A stretch of DNA of 47,835 nucleotides from Rhodospirillales bacterium. Its GTDB lineage: Bacteria; Pseudomonadota; Alphaproteobacteria; Acetobacterales; Acetobacteraceae. How positions within the stretch are numbered: the first letter of the stretch is position 1; each line of letters begins with the position of its first letter. Below are positions 10,242 to 27,827 of this stretch, piece after piece. The notes beneath the pieces are model-generated. The model searched no databases, was not told the DNA's origin, and worked only from the letters and a program-made list of their open reading frames with translations. The DNA lies in contig JANXVC010000070.1 of the NCBI GenBank assembly GCA_025351925.1, forward strand, positions 1 to 47,835, given 5' to 3'. The position numbers were made by a program, and so were the translations under genes.

Positions 10242-13200
10242 CTACTCCGCCGGCTGCTGCTCCGCAGTCGGCACCCCGGGCTTCCCGCGCGGCGGCATGT
10301 TGGGTTTGCGGCGGCTTGGCGGCATCGCGGCGTCGCGCGGCGTCAGCAGACGGCCGAACAGCCGGCCCACCACCCGGGACGCGTCGTCCATCACCGTGTA
10401 AAACGACGGCACGAACACCAGCGACAGCACTGTCGAGACGATCAGCCCGCCGATGACGCCGATTGCCATGGGGGAGCGGAACTCGCCGCCGTCGCCCAGG
10501 CCCAGCGCGCTCGGGATCATGCCCGCCACCATCGCGATTGTCGTCATGACGATCGGCCGCGCCCGCTTGCGTCCGGCGTCGATGATGGCCTCGCCGCGCG
10601 CCATGCCCTCGGCGCGCCGCTCGATGGCGAAATCGACCAGCATGATGGCGTTCTTCGTCACGATGCCCATCAGCATCAGGACGCCGATCACCACAGGCAT
10701 GCTGATCGGCTCGCCGGTGAGCAGCAGCGCCAGGATCACGCCGCCCAGGCTGAGCGGCAGCGAAAGCAGGATGGTAATCGGCTGGAACACGTTGCGGAAC
10801 AGCAAGACCAGCACGCCCAGCACGATCGTGAGGCCAGCGCCCATTGCCAGGCCAAAGCTCGCGAACACCTCGGCCATGATCTCGGCATCGCCGCCGTTTT
10901 GGATGCGGACGCCCGGCGGCAGCGCCGTCGCTTGCGGCAGCGCATAAACCGATTTAAGCGCGGCTCCCAACGCCACGCCCTGGTTGAGGTCGGCACCCAG
11001 CACCACCCGGCGCACCCGGTCATAGCGCTCAACGCTAGCCGGACCCTGCCCTAGCTCGATGTCGGCCACCGCCAGCAGCGGCACCGGCAAGCCATTCGCA
11101 CCGGTGACCGTCAAGGCCTGGATGGCGTCGAGGTCGCCGCGCAGCGCCGTATCGACCTGGACGCGGATGGGAATCAGCCGGTCGCCGGCGCGGAACTTCG
11201 CGAGGTTGGCCGGCACGTCGCCGATAGTGGCGATGCGCACGGCGCTGCTGATCGCCTCGGTCGAGATGCCGAACCGGGCGGCCTCGTCCACCCGCGGCAC
11301 GACTCGGATCTCGGGCCGGTCCGCACCTGCCGAGGGCGCCACGTTGCCGAAGCCCGGCAGGCGGCGCATTCCGCCCTCCAGCCCCGCCACGGCGCGGTTC
11401 AGCGCGGCCGCATCGTCGCCCAGCACCGTCACCGACAGCTCGCGCTCGCCGCGGTCGTTCACATACCAGCCGCGCACGTCCGGCAGCGTCGCGAGACGCC
11501 GGGTGAGATCGGCCTCGATCAGCTTTTGGCTGCGGGCGCGGGTCTCCTTCAGCACGAGATTCACGATCATCTTCGCCCGGCGGATCTCCGGCCCGGCGCC
11601 CGTCGGCGTCGTGCCGCCCACGACGAACACCGTCGTAACCTCGGGGATTTTATGAAATTCCTTGGCAATGCCGTCCGTCGCCGCCCGCGTGTCGGCGAGG
11701 GTGGAGCCCGGCGGCAGCTCGATTGACAGCACCACGCGGCTCTCATCGGGCGGCGGGATGAAGCCAGTCGGCAGCAGGGTGGTGGACCAGATCGACAGCC
11801 CGAATGTTGTCAGTCCGGCCAGCAAAGTCAGGCTGCGCCAACGCAGCGTCGCACCCAGGAACCGGGTGTAGGCGCGCATGATGCGGCCGTCCTGCTCGGG
11901 ATCGGCGGCGACCGGGCGCATGAGGTAGGCGGCCATCAGCGGCGTGATCAGCCGGGCGACCAGTAGCGACGCCAGCACCGCCGCCGATACCGTGAGGCCG
12001 AACTGCTTGAAGAACTGCCCGGCGATGCCGCCCATGAAGCTGACGGGCGAGAACACCGCGATGATGGTGAGCGTAATGGCAATGACCGCCAGGCCGATCT
12101 CGTCGGCGGCCTCCACCGCCGCCTCGAACGGGCGCTTGCCCATGCGCATGTGACGGACGATGTTCTCGATCTCGACGATGGCGTCATCGACCAGGATGCC
12201 AGTGACCAGCGTGATCGCCAGCAGGCTGACGAAGTTCAGCGAAAAGCCCATGGCCATCATGGCGGCGAAGGCCGGGATGATCGACAGCGGCAGGGCGACC
12301 GCTACCAGCAGAGTGGCGCGCCAGTTGCGCAGGAACACCAGCACCACGATCGTCGCCAGGATCGCGCCCTCGATCAGGCCGTGCATCGCCGAGAGATAGC
12401 TGCCGCGGGCGGTGCGCACGCCGTCGTCGATCAGCGTGTAGGTCACCTCCGGATGGACTGCGGCGAGCTTGGCCAGCCGTGCGGCGACGGCGTCACCGAC
12501 CGTGACCTCGCTGGCGCCCTTGGCCCGGTAGATTCCGAACGACACAACCGGTGTCGTGCCGTCCATCCGAGCGAAGTCGCGCGGTTCCTCATAGGCGTCC
12601 TCGACCCGCGCCACGTCCGAAAGCCGCATCTCGCGTCCGCCGGGCAGCACCAGGCGGGTGTCCTGCAGCTGCTGCAGGCTGCGGGCGCTCGCCAGGGTGC
12701 GTATGGCCTGCTCCTGCGCTCCGACCTCGCCGCGGCCGCCCGACAGGTCGGCGCTGGTGGCGCGGAGCTGGTTGTTCACGTCGCCGGCGGTGATGCCTAG
12801 GGACGCCAGGCGGTCGGCGTCGAGGCTCACGCGGATTTCGCGGGTCACGCCGCCGATCCGCTGCACCCGGCCCACGCCCTGCGCCCCCTGCAAATCGCGC
12901 AGCACGGTGTCGTCCACGAACCAGGACAGCCCTTCGAGGGTCATGCCGGGCGCCGAGGCGGCGTAGGTCTGGATGCTTTGGCCGACGATATCGACGCGCT
13001 CGATGATCGGCTCGTCGATGCCGCGCGGCAGGTCGGCGCGGATTTTCGACACGGCGTCGCGCACGTCATTCAGCGCGCGGTCACTGCTGACCTCCAGCCG
13101 GAACTCGATCGCGGTCAGGCTGGTGCCGTCGGTGACGGTGGAGAGCAGGTGCTTCACGCCCGTCACGTTGGCGACGGCGTCCTCGACCTTTTTGGTGACC

Positions 13201-13391
13201 TGGGTTTCCAGCTCGCCGGGCGCGGCACCAGGCTGGGTGACGGTGACGGAGACGATTGGGACGTCGATATTGGGCGTGCGGGTGATGGGCAGCATGTTGA
13301 AGCCGACCAGGCCCAGCAGGGTCAGCACGACAAACAGCACCAAGGGCGGAATCGGGTTGCGGATCGCCGCGCCCGAGATGTTGAACGCCAT
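10242..13391 (-). CDS. RND multidrug efflux pump, AcrB/HAE1 family
   Basis: A 1049-residue trimeric inner-membrane pump, the normal AcrB length. It opens with a TM at FVVLTLLGLVGFNMLPITRTPNIDVP. TM4 carries the proton-relay pair in LVTGILVDDAIVEIENI, and the TM10 Lys appears in GIVTKNAIMLVDFAIERR. The porter landmarks GVKHLLSTVTDGTS and MGGIAGQFFKQFGLT are also present. It starts two bases after the stop of the adaptor gene and ends the TetR-adaptor-pump operon. No outer-membrane channel gene is attached; the NodT-type channel at 5106-6641 is the nearest candidate. Confidence 0.95.
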   Translation of the reverse strand: MAFNISGAAIRNPIPPLVLFVVLTLLGLVGFNMLPITRTPNIDVPIVSVTVTQPGAAPGELETQVTKKVEDAVANVTGVKHLLSTVTDGTSLTAIEFRLEVSSDRALNDVRDAVSKIRADLPRGIDEPIIERVDIVGQSIQTYAASAPGMTLEGLSWFVDDTVLRDLQGAQGVGRVQRIGGVTREIRVSLDADRLASLGITAGDVNNQLRATSADLSGGRGEVGAQEQAIRTLASARSLQQLQDTRLVLPGGREMRLSDVARVEDAYEEPRDFARMDGTTPVVSFGIYRAKGASEVTVGDAVAARLAKLAAVHPEVTYTLIDDGVRTARGSYLSAMHGLIEGAILATIVVLVFLRNWRATLLVAVALPLSIIPAFAAMMAMGFSLNFVSLLAITLVTGILVDDAIVEIENIVRHMRMGKRPFEAAVEAADEIGLAVIAITLTIIAVFSPVSFMGGIAGQFFKQFGLTVSAAVLASLLVARLITPLMAAYLMRPVAADPEQDGRIMRAYTRFLGATLRWRSLTLLAGLTTFGLSIWSTTLLPTGFIPPPDESRVVLSIELPPGSTLADTRAATDGIAKEFHKIPEVTTVFVVGGTTPTGAGPEIRRAKMIVNLVLKETRARSQKLIEADLTRRLATLPDVRGWYVNDRGERELSVTVLGDDAAALNRAVAGLEGGMRRLPGFGNVAPSAGADRPEIRVVPRVDEAARFGISTEAISSAVRIATIGDVPANLAKFRAGDRLIPIRVQVDTALRGDLDAIQALTVTGANGLPVPLLAVADIELGQGPASVERYDRVRRVVLGADLNQGVALGAALKSVYALPQATALPPGVRIQNGGDAEIMAEVFASFGLAMGAGLTIVLGVLVLLFRNVFQPITILLSLPLSLGGVILALLLTGEPISMPVVIGVLMLMGIVTKNAIMLVDFAIERRAEGMARGEAIIDAGRKRARPIVMTTIAMVAGMIPSALGLGDGGEFRSPMAIGVIGGLIVSTVLSLVFVPSFYTVMDDASRVVGRLFGRLLTPRDAAMPPSRRKPNMPPRGKPGVPTAEQQPAE

Positions 13392-14548: not shown

Positions 14549-15147
14549 GCGGCCGCTCCCTGCGGCCGGAGGAACCGACGGAGCAGCAGTTGCAGCACCG
14601 GGCGGAAGCGGGCGGCGGTAAGCGTCGGGTCCAGCGCCTGATGCACGGCCATGCCATCGGCCATGGCCATGACGAGCTGGCAGGCGGTCTCGACGTCGAG
14701 CGTCGGATCGACGGTGCCGCGGGCCTGGCCGCGCTGGAGGGCGGCCACGACGGCGGCGCGGGCCTCGCGGATGTTGCGGTCGAACATGGAGCGTATATCT
14801 GGGTTGCGAATGGCTTCCGCCATGGTCTCGGCGCAGAGGGCGGCGTTGGGTCCGGTCAGCATCTGCTCCAGCGCGTCGATGCCGATGCTGGCGAGGGCCT
14901 CGACCGGGTCGTCGGCCTCGGCCATGCGTTCGAAAAATGCGGCGTGCTGGGTGCGTTCGGCCTCGGCGATGGCGGCGATGATGGCGACCTTGCTGGGGAA
15001 GTAGCGGTATAGCGCACCGGGGCTCATGCCGGCCTCGACGCAGACCTCGTGCATGGAAGCGCCGTGGAAGCCGGAGCGGGCGAAGCAGGTGATGGCGGCG
15101 TCGATGATGCGCTGGCGGGGAGGTGAGAGCTGCGCGGCTTGGGACAT
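14545..15147 (-). CDS. TetR/AcrR-family repressor of the RND operon
   Basis: 200 residues from ATG 15147; a GTG at 15177 would add ten residues but would bury the operator-like palindrome. The N-terminal HTH is clear: RIIDAAITCFARSGFHGASMHEV, then AGMSPGALYRYFPSKVAIIAAI. The C-terminal ligand domain is helical and variable, as usual. The stop overlaps the adaptor start, so the repressor is the first gene of the efflux operon it most likely controls. The exact palindrome TGAACGTTCA 20 bases before the start is the likely operator, implying autoregulation. The inducer is unknown. Confidence 0.93.
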   Translation of the reverse strand: MSQAAQLSPPRQRIIDAAITCFARSGFHGASMHEVCVEAGMSPGALYRYFPSKVAIIAAIAEAERTQHAAFFERMAEADDPVEALASIGIDALEQMLTGPNAALCAETMAEAIRNPDIRSMFDRNIREARAAVVAALQRGQARGTVDPTLDVETACQLVMAMADGMAVHQALDPTLTAARFRPVLQLLLRRFLRPQGAAA

Positions 15148-15166
15148 GAGTGGGCCTAGATGAGAA

Positions 15167-15176
15167 TGAACGTTCA
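15167..15176. promoter_or_regulatory. Candidate TetR operator
   Basis: The perfect 10-bp palindrome TGAACGTTCA lies 20-29 bases upstream of the TetR start. Short palindromes centred on ACGT are common TetR-family operators, and the position suits repression of the regulator-adaptor-pump operon. The flanks are only partly symmetric. Confidence 0.55.
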
Positions 15177-15378
15177 CTTGCTCTCGCGCAGGCAGATGTC
15201 AAGCTCTGGTCATGGCTTCCAGCTTGCGTAGCAGAGTTGGATATCGTTACGGTGCGGTAGCGCACCTCCGAAGGCGAGATTGCCGTTCTAACAACGGGAC
15301 CTCAGCAAAACGGTGTGTAGATAAATAGCGCCCCGAGAAAGTAATATGTGGCCAATCCGATGAAGATTACTGTGCACA

Positions 15379-15642
15379 CTAACCGACTTCTCGGAGCATC
15401 TTCTCGATAGAGATTAACCTGGCTCTAACATCGGCCAATTCCGCTTTGGACGTTGCAAGAGACTCAGTCATGAGGGACTGAGCGGCTGTTGTTTTCTCCG
15501 CCAGCGACCGGAAAGTTTCATCGCTGGCGAGACGCAGGCGCGCCTGCCGTGCTCCTGACATGTATTTCATGCCGAACACGAGGAGGATCGTTGCAAGAAT
15601 AAGAACTGTTGGAACAAGGAAATTATGCATGTGCTCTATCAT
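15379..15642 (-). CDS. Small single-TM coiled-coil membrane protein
   Basis: 87 residues. An N-terminal TM (FLVPTVLILATILLVFGMKYM) is followed by a basic turn (SGARQARLRL) and a helical tail with heptad-like spacing to the C-terminus (TKAELADVRARLISIEKML-like pattern). It is probably anchored in the inner membrane with the coiled coil in the cytoplasm. It begins four bases after the stop of the ArsR-type regulator and is probably controlled by it. Codon use is less GC-biased than in the flanking efflux and antiporter genes. I do not recognise a function. Confidence 0.7.
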   Translation of the reverse strand: MIEHMHNFLVPTVLILATILLVFGMKYMSGARQARLRLASDETFRSLAEKTTAAQSLMTESLATSKAELADVRARLISIEKMLREVG

Positions 15643-15646
15643 AATC

Positions 15647-15958
15647 TTACACCAAATCTCCTGGATTTTTATTTTTGACAGTTAGACTTTTTACAGAATC
15701 CGTGATGGTCAGTGGTGATAATTCATAGAGAAACTCTGTGACCTCGAAATATTGCAAAGCCTTACTGTCGTCTGATAGCTCTAGCTGACTGCGGACAAGC
15801 CCCGCATCCTGAAGCTTCTGCAAATGAAGATGGAGGAGCGGGCGGCTTAGACCCACGTCACGCGCAAGCTGACTAACGTAGTTGCGGCCTGCTGACTGCA
15901 AAGAAGCTATGATCCGCAAACGATGTACATTTGCCAACGCTCCCAAAACCGCCAGCAT
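15647..15958 (-). CDS. ArsR-like winged-helix transcriptional regulator
   Basis: About 103 residues from ATG 15958, chosen for GGGAG five bases upstream; in-frame ATGs at 15973 and 15985 are possible. The winged helix is clear: LGALANVHRLRIIASL, then YVSQLARDVGLSRPLLHLHLQKLQDAGLV, which matches the ArsR recognition-helix layout with a wing after it. There is no Cys-rich metal site such as ELCVCDL, so a metal signal is not indicated. DNA here is clearly AT-richer than the neighbours, suggesting acquisition. It precedes the small membrane protein by four bases. A palindrome over the predicted -10 suggests autorepression. Confidence 0.8.
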   Translation of the reverse strand: MLAVLGALANVHRLRIIASLQSAGRNYVSQLARDVGLSRPLLHLHLQKLQDAGLVRSQLELSDDSKALQYFEVTEFLYELSPLTITDSVKSLTVKNKNPGDLV

Positions 15959-16026
15959 GTGATCTCCCGTCATGCAAACCAACATGCCGGAACTAAACTG
16001 ACATATGCAAGAAAATTCTGACACGT

Positions 16027-25050: not shown

Positions 25051-26042
25051 ACGGGGTCGCCGTGCTGGACACCGACGCTGCGCTGCTGGCGCTCGCGCCG
25101 GAGTGGGAGGCGCTGTGGCGTCGAGTGCCGGACGCTTCGCCATTTTCGGCGCCGGCGTGGCTGATCCCGTGGTGGCGGCATTTTGGCACCGGCGCGCCGC
25201 GGGTGGCGATCCAGCGTACCGCCGGGCGGCTATCGGGCGTGCTGCCGCTGTATCGCCTGGACGAGCCCGGCATCCGCAAGCTGCTGCCGATCGGCGCCGG
25301 CACCACCGACTATTTGGATGCGTTGCTGGAGCCGGGCGCGGAGGTTGGGCCATTGCTGCAGGCGGCGCTGGATCGTGCCCGGGCAGATGGAGTGGACGCG
25401 TGCGACCTGATCGAAGTGCCACCAGAGTCGGCACTGCACAGCATCGCGCCGAAGGGTTGGCACGTGCACTGGTCTGAGGGCGAGCCCTGCCCGGTGCTGA
25501 CGCTGCCCACGACGGTCGCAGGACTGGCCGAAATCGTGCCCGGCAACACGCTGCGAAAGCTACGGATGAACCGCAATCGTTCCGCCCGCGCTGGCGGACT
25601 TATTATTGAGACGGCCGGGCCAGCGACGGTGCAGCCTCTCCTGTCCGAGCTCGTCCGCCTGCATCAGGCGCGCTGGACCATGCAGGGCGAGGCCGGCGCC
25701 TTTTCAGACCCAGCGGTTCTCGCCTTCCAGCAAGATGCCGCCCCCGCGCTGCTGTTGGCCGGAGCGCTTCGGCTCCAGGCGCTGCGGGTTGGAGGCACAG
25801 TTGCGGCGGCCTGTTATACCCTGCTCACACGACGAGACCGCATCCTGTTTTACCTGAGCGGCTTCGACACCGCGCATTCCTTTGTCAGCCCCGGCACGCT
25901 GCTGCTCGCCAGCATGATCGAGCAGGCAGTGACGGAGGGCCGGCGTGAGGCGCACTTCTTGCGTGGAAGAGAGGCCTATAAATACGCCTGGGGCGGCGTG
26001 GACCGGCTCAACTTGGACTGCCGCCTGACGCCGGCCGCTTAA
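25047..26042 (+). CDS. GNAT-type acyltransferase, CelD/BcsL (FemAB-like) family
   Basis: 331 residues. The N-terminal half has ALAPEWEALWRRVPDASPF and PAWLIPWWRHFG, the usual opening of CelD/BcsL proteins. The C-terminal half carries ELVRLHQARWTMQG and the acyl-CoA binding block ending FLRGREAYKYAWGG. Such proteins acylate amino sugars or related groups in exopolysaccharide and glycolipid pathways. With the PIG-L deacetylase two genes upstream, deacetylation followed by re-acylation is a reasonable guess. It is the last gene of the glycan operon. Confidence 0.85.
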   Translation: MNGVAVLDTDAALLALAPEWEALWRRVPDASPFSAPAWLIPWWRHFGTGAPRVAIQRTAGRLSGVLPLYRLDEPGIRKLLPIGAGTTDYLDALLEPGAEVGPLLQAALDRARADGVDACDLIEVPPESALHSIAPKGWHVHWSEGEPCPVLTLPTTVAGLAEIVPGNTLRKLRMNRNRSARAGGLIIETAGPATVQPLLSELVRLHQARWTMQGEAGAFSDPAVLAFQQDAAPALLLAGALRLQALRVGGTVAAACYTLLTRRDRILFYLSGFDTAHSFVSPGTLLLASMIEQAVTEGRREAHFLRGREAYKYAWGGVDRLNLDCRLTPAA

Positions 26043-26072
26043 GGCGGAAGGCGTCGCACTACGGCTTTCGCC
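26043..26072. terminator. Weak hairpin between convergent genes
   Basis: GGCGGAAG (26043-26050) can pair with CTTTCGCC (26065-26072) through eight base pairs including one G-U. It occupies the 39-base gap between the convergent acyltransferase and hypothetical genes. There is no T-run, so it may be only a weak terminator. Confidence 0.35.
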
Positions 26073-26081
26073 AGGAAATAG

Positions 26082-27044
26082 TCATTGTTCAATCGCCGCG
26101 GTCCGTGCCGGCTCGCCTTTGGGCTGCGTCGTGGGGGCTTGGGGCCTACCACCGCTTAGGTCGCCCGGCTTTGCCATGGTCTCCACGGCGCTATCAAGGA
26201 TCGCTTCCAAGCGGGTTCTCCACGCATCCACCACTTCCATTGCGTCATCTGAAAACGCCGCGGGTTCTTTGCAGAGATTAGGTCTTTTCAAAACATCAGA
26301 CGCGACGCGCCAATGAAGCTGTTGCAGTTGGGACAGCGTCCTCTGGTCACGCAAGGCGACTATCTGGCTTCCGTCAAAGCCGCTCATGGAGGAGACGGCC
26401 GCCCCGGCTGTTGAAAACACAATAGCCATGACACCAATGAAACCAGCTTTCGGAGTGTTCCCCGGTATTACGGTTCTTATGCTGACGAAGATTGTTGCAC
26501 ATGCGCCAAAACCCAAAATAAGGATTTGGTAGAGCCTAGAGCGTGAACGACTATCCTCCAGCTCCCTTCGGACCTCCAACCGATCCCGTGAGATGCGGTC
26601 GCTAAAGGAAATCGCGGCCGCATGGAATGGGTTCAGGACTGGCAGTGTATGAGCCGTCGATCCCTCGGTTGGCTTGTGGGTCACAAAGGGAGGCGTTTGC
26701 ATCCGGTGTTCGTCGAGTTCGGATAGCAGGATGGCTCTAATGCTTGGAGACCAGTGCATTGGGTCCCCGATCGTCTCGTAATAGCATTGGGCGATATCGA
26801 GCGCGATCGCCGCATGATCGCTGCGGGCCGCGCCGAACTCTTTCAGCGCGTTGTCCGTCCCACGATAGAATTGCCCCAAGGCAGCGACCGGGGTTTCCTG
26901 CACTGGCTGGACCAAGGGAATATTCGGGCGAGCTATCGTAGTCGCTTCGGCGGCTTTTGCGTGTGGGATGCTGCTTGGTGCAGCGCTGAGTACCGAAGTC
27001 AGGACTGCCGAAACGCCAGCAATGCGGATAAATTTTCGCAACAT
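26082..27044 (-). CDS. Exported two-TM protein of unknown function
   Basis: 320 residues. A signal peptide is likely (FIRIAGVSAVLTSVLSAAPSS, cut near AKAAEA). A periplasmic part of about 140 residues includes DIAQCYYETIGDPMHWSPSIRA. A charged helix rich in Arg, Glu and Ser (SRDRLEVRRELEDSRSRSR) then precedes two hydrophobic segments, LYQILILGFGACATIFVSI and AGFIGVMAIVFSTAGAAVSS, and a soluble tail with DAWRTRLEAILDSAVETM. I recognise no family. GC content and codon bias are visibly lower than in the glycan and pentose operons on either side. AAAGG lies upstream of the start, and a 21-bp palindrome lies just beyond it. Confidence 0.7.
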   Translation of the reverse strand: MLRKFIRIAGVSAVLTSVLSAAPSSIPHAKAAEATTIARPNIPLVQPVQETPVAALGQFYRGTDNALKEFGAARSDHAAIALDIAQCYYETIGDPMHWSPSIRAILLSELDEHRMQTPPFVTHKPTEGSTAHTLPVLNPFHAAAISFSDRISRDRLEVRRELEDSRSRSRLYQILILGFGACATIFVSIRTVIPGNTPKAGFIGVMAIVFSTAGAAVSSMSGFDGSQIVALRDQRTLSQLQQLHWRVASDVLKRPNLCKEPAAFSDDAMEVVDAWRTRLEAILDSAVETMAKPGDLSGGRPQAPTTQPKGEPARTAAIEQ

Positions 27045-27061
27045 GATCGCAACCTTTCCAA

Positions 27062-27082
27062 CTGGTGGTTATTAATCACCAG
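27062..27082. promoter_or_regulatory. 21-bp near-perfect palindrome before the unknown gene
   Basis: Arms CTGGTG (27062-27067) and CACCAG (27077-27082) flank GTTATTAAT. All ten pairs around the central base match except one G-T. It lies 18-38 bases upstream of the start codon at 27044 and contains an AT-rich core that could overlap a -10. It looks like an operator for a dimeric regulator, or a leader hairpin over the ribosome site. Confidence 0.45.
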
Positions 27083-27230
27083 CCGGATTTACAGGTCGAT
27101 CATCCCAGAAGATGTGAAATAGGTTACACTCGGCTTTACAAACAGCCAATGCGCAACGCGGCGTTGGCAAAGCAATGGAGCCGTGGCCAACCCAAAAACG
27201 GTCGTTCAGTCGAACCGCTGGCGCATCTTT

Positions 27231-27827
27231 TCAGAGCGGTAGATTCACGCCGTCCACCTGCACGCTTCCGTCGGCAAACACCCGTAGGACGCTGCGGGAG
27301 GCCGGCGCCAACTCAATGCGCTGCATGAGGTCGAGCGGCGCCCCCAGGCTATGCGAGATTACCGCCTTCAGCACGTCCTGATGGCTGACCAGCACAACTT
27401 CGCCGTCCCGATAGGCATTGTGCAGCCGCGCGATAGTGCGAAGCGGGCGGGCCAGCGCCTCCAGCATCGTCTCTCCGTTAGGGGTTGGCGCCGTACCGCG
27501 GAACTGATTCCAGGCCTGCCACGCCGGTAAATCCTGCAATGCCTCGAAAGCCATGCCGGTCCAGGCGCCAAAGTCGATCTCATCCAGCCCAGCATCCGTC
27601 GTCACAGCGAGGCCGAGCGCCGCGGCAATCGGCGCAGCCGTCTCTTGCGCACGCGCCAATGGGCTGGACACCACCGCCGCAATCGAGCGTCCCGAGAAAT
27701 ATGCCGCCAGTCGCACCGCCTGCGCCCGCCCATCCTCATTCAGTAACACGCCCGGCATCCGACCCGCCAGCACACGGCCTAGCAGCCCATGCGCAGCGTG
27801 CCGAACGAGGTAAAAAGTCGTTGCCAA
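27231..27827 (-). CDS. Histidine phosphatase (phosphoglycerate mutase-like)
   Basis: 198 residues from a TTG start at 27827, two bases after the ROK kinase stop. The catalytic His is in FYLVRHAAHG, a variant of the usual RHG motif with Ala in place of Gly. AAVVSSPLARAQETA supplies the phosphate-binding Arg, EIDFGAWTGM an acidic loop, and VVLVSHQDVLKAVI the second His. As the last gene of the pentose phosphate operon it probably dephosphorylates a sugar phosphate or regulates flux; the substrate is not predictable. It could equally be a housekeeping phosphatase of the CobC/GpmB type. Confidence 0.85.
   Translation of the reverse strand: MATTFYLVRHAAHGLLGRVLAGRMPGVLLNEDGRAQAVRLAAYFSGRSIAAVVSSPLARAQETAAPIAAALGLAVTTDAGLDEIDFGAWTGMAFEALQDLPAWQAWNQFRGTAPTPNGETMLEALARPLRTIARLHNAYRDGEVVLVSHQDVLKAVISHSLGAPLDLMQRIELAPASRSVLRVFADGSVQVDGVNLPL

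Follow-up and report, generated by a model that had tools for sequence, protein, structure and literature searches.

SLATT is a two-transmembrane (2TM) domain to which a pore-forming role in nucleotide-signalled bacterial immunity has been assigned by prediction; the available text of PMC7159879 calls it a predicted nucleotide-responsive, pore-forming effector. It is linked to TIR genes in phages, according to the accessible part of PMC9503650, and the parts available of PMC12483538 and PMC12632851 connect it with the DRT9 and DRT10 systems. In the DRT10 case, deletion of the SLATT gene abolishes defence, as stated in the same portion of PMC12632851. The usual view of SLATT proteins is that of effectors facing the cytosol and responding to nucleotide or nucleic-acid signals. 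Among the literature matches listed by title and the start of the abstract, most of which seemingly contain 'slatt' inside other words, no paper dealt with exported SLATT proteins.

Here we describe P0001, a protein encoded in a 47,835-nucleotide stretch of DNA from a Rhodospirillales bacterium of the Acetobacteraceae (contig JANXVC010000070.1; hereafter the window), which we regard as SLATT-like, short of an established SLATT member. With SLATT_1 (NF033634; PF18181; SMODS and SLOG-associating 2TM effector) it shares a long charged helix, two TMs, a short loop and following helices (Table 1). It differs from SLATT_1 in its signal-like N-terminus, an extra soluble N-terminal part bearing a cysteine and the lack of a partner gene. 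The SLATT proteins of DRT9 and DRT10 are likewise 2TM effectors, whereas the P0001 gene adjoins no reverse transcriptase and its product is predicted to be exported. Effectors linked to GAP1, TIR and SLOG resemble P0001 as predicted pore-forming modules, but in the available parts of PMC7159879 and PMC9503650 they sit with nucleotide-signal or NTPase genes, while the P0001 gene is a singleton.

Table 1. Features of the P0001 gene and its upstream region, in window coordinates
Feature	Position	Strand	Basis
P0001 gene, 320 aa, SLATT-like protein	26082..27044	-	ORF, ATG start; SLATT_1 E 4e-10
SLATT-like domain, residues 148-276: charged helix, TM1 171-189, loop, TM2 200-218, following helix	26217..26603	-	NCBIfam, hydropathy, AF2
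Cys258 codon, second soluble cysteine	26271..26273	-	Invariant column in three homologues
Cys87 codon, soluble N-terminal part, after ARSDH motif	26784..26786	-	Aligned with P0002 Cys57
N-terminal hydrophobic, signal-like segment, codons 1-31; hydrophobic 8-26	26952..27044	-	Hydropathy; AKA|AE cleavage-like site by eye
Imperfect 61-nt hairpin, 22 pairs; the GGAAAGG ribosome-binding site and the start-codon AU lie in its 3' arm	27043..27103	-	RNA folding
21-bp palindrome CTGGTGGTTATTAATCACCAG, 9/10 pairs; apex of the larger hairpin	27062..27082		Sequence
CRP/FNR-type candidate site TGTAA-CCTATT-TCACA, upstream of the P0001 gene and the dyad	27113..27128	-	Motif match

On the same strand, a histidine phosphatase gene (27231-27827) lies 186 bp upstream of the P0001 gene, which is tail-to-tail with a GNAT-type Acetyltransf_6 gene ending at 26042. 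None of its neighbours was recognised as a nucleotide-signal or defence partner, neither a reverse transcriptase nor an RNA-family match adjoins it, and no flanking direct repeats resembling target duplications surround it. The preliminary description had called the gene lower in GC than its neighbours and its place a typical insertion point for acquired genes, and our composition check confirms the lower GC: its GC is 0.571 and its GC3 0.614, against a GC3 of 0.74-0.90 in nine neighbouring genes. Elsewhere in the window, at 15001-16000, GC falls to 0.53 where a small HTH ORF, ArsR-like (15647-16024), lies upstream of a gene for an NhaA-like antiporter (both named by eye); this is a possible second acquired stretch.

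Two remote homologues of P0001, P0002 and P0003, come from other Acetobacteraceae genera. A P0001 search of 299 genomes of the family, including its own, gave four matching rows; beyond its own genome, the real matches are G077 (E = 8e-20) and G090 (E = 7e-20). The fourth row (G095, E = 0.005) was a 42-residue match within an unrelated 741-aa open frame and was dropped. With A1, a three-row profile of P0001 and its homologues, 395 genomes of the order returned its own genome, G077 and four rows (G686, G711, G725 and G064) that were dropped as Arg/Pro-rich, low-complexity or out-of-frame ORFs; 385 genomes of the class returned its own and G357 (locus L013), an ordinary SLATT protein. A scan of 84,980 species genomes recovered, within the limits of the peptide patterns used, the same two homologue loci only, in MAGs named 'Acetobacteraceae bacterium' and 'Acidisphaera sp.'. 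Searches of plasmids, phages and viral contigs gave no P0001 relative, and viral scans with two canonical SLATT proteins found none either. The neighbours of one homologue are atpA/atpH and an HTH gene, and those of the other GT87, MaoC-like and VOC-like genes; some of these names are tentative. In the Acidisphaera genome, an HTH_3 protein that looks antitoxin-like by eye converges on the P0002 gene (L002, 2349-2729).

Far from sitting at the same locus in all relatives, P0001 homologues are absent from 59 of 59 other relatives. Three congeners lack the gene. Congener G002 keeps the two flanks on a single contig, their aligned parts 129 bp apart, where the window has 1238 bp (26012-27249). In G001, unrelated sequence ending in a partial transposase-like ORF (by eye) comes after the left flank, and the right flank sits on a different contig; the G003 contig stops before the site. 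Low GC, the absence of homologues from all these relatives and the near-empty site in G002 together support horizontal acquisition of the P0001 gene, and its base composition makes loss from the congeners less likely. As judged from sequence, a mobile singleton fits the gene best.

Upstream, the 21-bp palindrome was already known from the preliminary description, which had described it as the gene's own operator-like element. The palindrome itself is real, and 17 bases separate it from the ATG; its role as an operator is doubtful. The 5.9-Mb genome contains a single copy, even when three mismatches are allowed; the palindrome is missing upstream of both homologues and forms the apex of a longer hairpin. 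The window has 3 odd palindromes of this kind where 4.6 ± 2.1 would be expected; for the 186-bp intergenic stretch, the probability of one or more, whether odd or even, is ~0.012. On its own, the palindrome is weak evidence.

The hairpin around it is exceptionally stable, with z of -4.45 over 91 nt and -4.81 over 67 nt; none of 5000 dinucleotide shuffles of the 67-nt piece folded as well. Across 1592 tiled 91-nt windows on both strands, one reached z = -4.45 and four reached -4. The lowest z among these tiles belongs to 10600-10730, a strong potential hairpin (z = -4.61, MFE = -73.6, coding strand) inside a 1049-aa ORF that by eye encodes an RND-type transporter (10242-13391). The leaders of both homologues fold in an ordinary way (z of 0.19 to 0.87), neither with a leader hairpin. 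As a repeated element the leader hairpin was rejected, being present in a single copy in the genome; 99 other genomes yielded one 21-base match, at chance level. No Rfam family fits the leader, and no thermometer family appeared up to E = 5. An RNA thermometer was likewise rejected because, in the folding model, heating from 20 to 60 °C leaves the SD and AUG mostly paired.

A better operator candidate, judging by its sequence, is the CRP-type site, which agrees at 9 of 10 positions with the CRP consensus. The pattern TGTRA-N6-TCACA occurs in only 4 places in the 5.9-Mb genome. A perfect site, TGTGA-GGTATT-TCACA, precedes the ATG of P0003 by 166 nt and is one of 19 such places in that 6.4-Mb genome; P0002 has no CRP-type site within 300 nt upstream. 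We treat this rarity as suggestive only, since the motif was first noticed by eye. Another of the four sites in the genome lies at ~5606 of locus L065 (G000:C471:14605-14620), just upstream of a run of small secreted curli-like proteins (by eye). A CRP-type site was also seen at ~3520 of L063 (G000:C23), with a transposase-like ORF on one side and the end of the contig on the other, near a RES/Xre-like toxin-antitoxin pair (by eye).

If a CRP-type activator acts at this site, transcription could start inside the dyad, which would then work as DNA, an operator over the promoter or start site whose upstream arm is never transcribed. Class II CRP sites have a characteristic spacing to the transcription start, and a site centred at ~27120 would place that start at ~27079, within the dyad. 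The predicted closure of the RNA up to 60 °C and the lack of support for a thermometer fit this alternative as well, but the G-U pairs and the pairing that runs past the 21-bp palindrome to the start codon are what an RNA structure would show. We consider a DNA role quite possible, if somewhat short of probable. In the arrangement that we build on below, a CRP-type site and a dyad over the start codon would guard expression.

For the protein, the preliminary description had recognised no family; remote-homology search supplies one candidate. Among 18,950 NCBIfam models, SLATT_1 is the sole match of P0001 (E = 4e-10, residues 148-276), scoring 39.8 bits in the protein scan and 41.7 when the frame was scanned in its genome, around the cut-off of 41. 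It is also the best match of P0002 (28.7 bits, E = 1e-6) and P0003 (35.6 bits, E = 8e-9). Neither reversed P0001 nor any of four block-shuffled copies matched SLATT, and none of 14 control genomes contained a SLATT_1 match. Other comparisons were fainter. A Pfam scan of P0001 gave no SLATT (PF18181) match up to E = 5; only DUF4231 (PF14015) touches the same 2TM hairpin region (residues 160-224, E = 0.41) far under its gathering score (11.6 versus 24.7); all five SLATT_1 comparison proteins match DUF4231. Aligning A1 with five SLATT proteins in hhalign gave a probability of 14% and E = 0.0019, with the TMs in register. PHROGs gave no family for P0001, a PDB search by sequence gave it no match, and PADLOC-DB models assigned no family to P0001, P0002 or P0003, nor to the canonical SLATT protein P0004.

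The AF2 model of P0001, built from three sequences, has a mean pLDDT of 51.8, with most of the core at 50-87. Its helices span residues 139-192 (through TM1), 199-218 (TM2), 221-253 and 266-288, in the SLATT order; with hydropathy, the model shows the SLATT_1 layout of two TMs after a charged helix, followed by a helical part. Foldseek of this moderate-confidence model against PDB returned nothing at E ≤ 0.001, only coiled-coil noise. The model of P0003 (mean pLDDT 43) was excluded from the evidence. The sub-cut-off SLATT_1 score, the weak Pfam and hhalign results and the empty Foldseek search would suit an unrelated exported coiled-coil 2TM envelope protein, an adaptor or stress sensor whose hairpin resembles SLATT_1 by chance, but three diverged proteins independently favour the same model and the shuffled, reversed and control-genome searches were negative, so that we judge descent outside SLATT unlikely.

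We use SLATT-like as the working description when turning to the N-terminus. In a 19-residue Kyte-Doolittle window, P0001 has hydrophobic segments at residues 8-26, 171-189 and 200-218, which bears out the earlier outline of a signal-like segment, soluble part, charged helix, two TMs and soluble tail. About 145 residues separate the N-terminal segment from TM1. By hydropathy, all three homologous proteins (P0001, P0002 and P0003) carry an N-terminal hydrophobic segment. For comparison, we inspected the ORFs around 34 SLATT_1 matches including P0001, comprising the best 17 loci (one per protein) and 17 new loci. No hydrophobic segment lies upstream in 21 of these ORFs; in 12 others the upstream segments start no earlier than residue 21 and form part of either a second SLATT hairpin or a soluble, SLOG-like domain at the N-terminus. 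The window protein is thus alone in having a hydrophobic segment within the first 21 residues; the other 33 SLATT ORFs have none there. Seven loci (L006, L008, L010, L011, L073, L074 and L076) contain a recurring ~290-aa alphaproteobacterial protein that seemingly includes two tandem SLATT hairpins.

The three homologues also agree in having exactly two cysteines outside the hydrophobic segments: C87/C258 in P0001, C57/C225 in P0002, where they are the only cysteines, and C54/C218 in P0003. The ARSDH...C match between P0001 and P0002 is better than all 2000 of 2000 shuffles. For the first cysteine of P0002 and P0003, 56 of 2000 shuffles were equal or better, and between P0001 and P0003 the N-terminal motif was not recovered (760 of 2000 shuffles as good). 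A periplasmic disulfide would be the natural reading of these shared soluble cysteines. The protein is probably exported, and the sequence suggests SLATT helices that face the periplasm, possibly held by the disulfide.

Charge is less telling. The ratio of K/R to D/E in P0001 is 3:0 at the N-terminus, 2:0 in the loop, 8:6 before TM1 and 6:4 after TM2; both TM flanks are also net positive, so positive-inside charges leave the topology undecided. Those net positive flanks, together with the SLATT_1 similarity and the description of known SLATT proteins as nucleotide-responsive effectors in the available text of PMC7159879, would suit a pore effector of the ordinary SLATT type with its helices in the cytosol. 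Its N-terminal segment would be just a third membrane anchor or a non-exported helix, and it would answer a cytosolic nucleotide signal made elsewhere in the genome. Against this stand the signal-like N-terminus common to the three homologues and absent from the other SLATT ORFs, the pair of soluble cysteines that they share and the fact that no nucleotide-signalling gene was recognised next to any of the three genes. To our mind, such a conventional effector is doubtful.

We tentatively favour, stopping just short of calling it probable, the reading of P0001 as an acquired, stand-alone, exported SLATT-like 2TM protein of Acetobacteraceae that acts as a pore or permeability switch. The sequence directly shows the gene and its composition, a patchy distribution, similarity to SLATT, the hydrophobic N-terminus, the shared cysteines and the hairpin; the mechanism that we infer from them comprises export, topology, disulfide, pore, trigger and regulation. 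The N-terminal signal would export the protein, placing the long pre-TM1 helix and the helices that follow TM2 in the periplasm, where those of an ordinary SLATT protein are expected to be cytosolic. A disulfide between Cys87 in the soluble N-terminal part and Cys258 in the tail could lock a closed state. By analogy with SLATT, the activity may be that of an oligomeric membrane pore or permeability switch, triggered from the envelope side, for example by phage attack or stress, with expression held in check from the leader as proposed above. The same analogy leads us to infer a function as an envelope-facing pore or sensor in conflict. A bolder version seems to us improbable: that P0001 represents the first envelope-facing SLATT branch, a mobile single-gene pore, exposed to the periplasm and gated by a disulfide, that detects attack coming from outside the cytosol and has its translation locked by the start-codon hairpin and its transcription under a CRP-type activator.

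If the favoured reading is true, a SLATT protein that is exported and has no partner would mean that this pore module can also be controlled from the periplasm, perhaps in a single-gene device that is locked by redox state or senses phage. Such a protein would further offer a simple test bed for whether the SLATT hairpin forms pores at all, which is a prediction in the literature as far as the available text goes.
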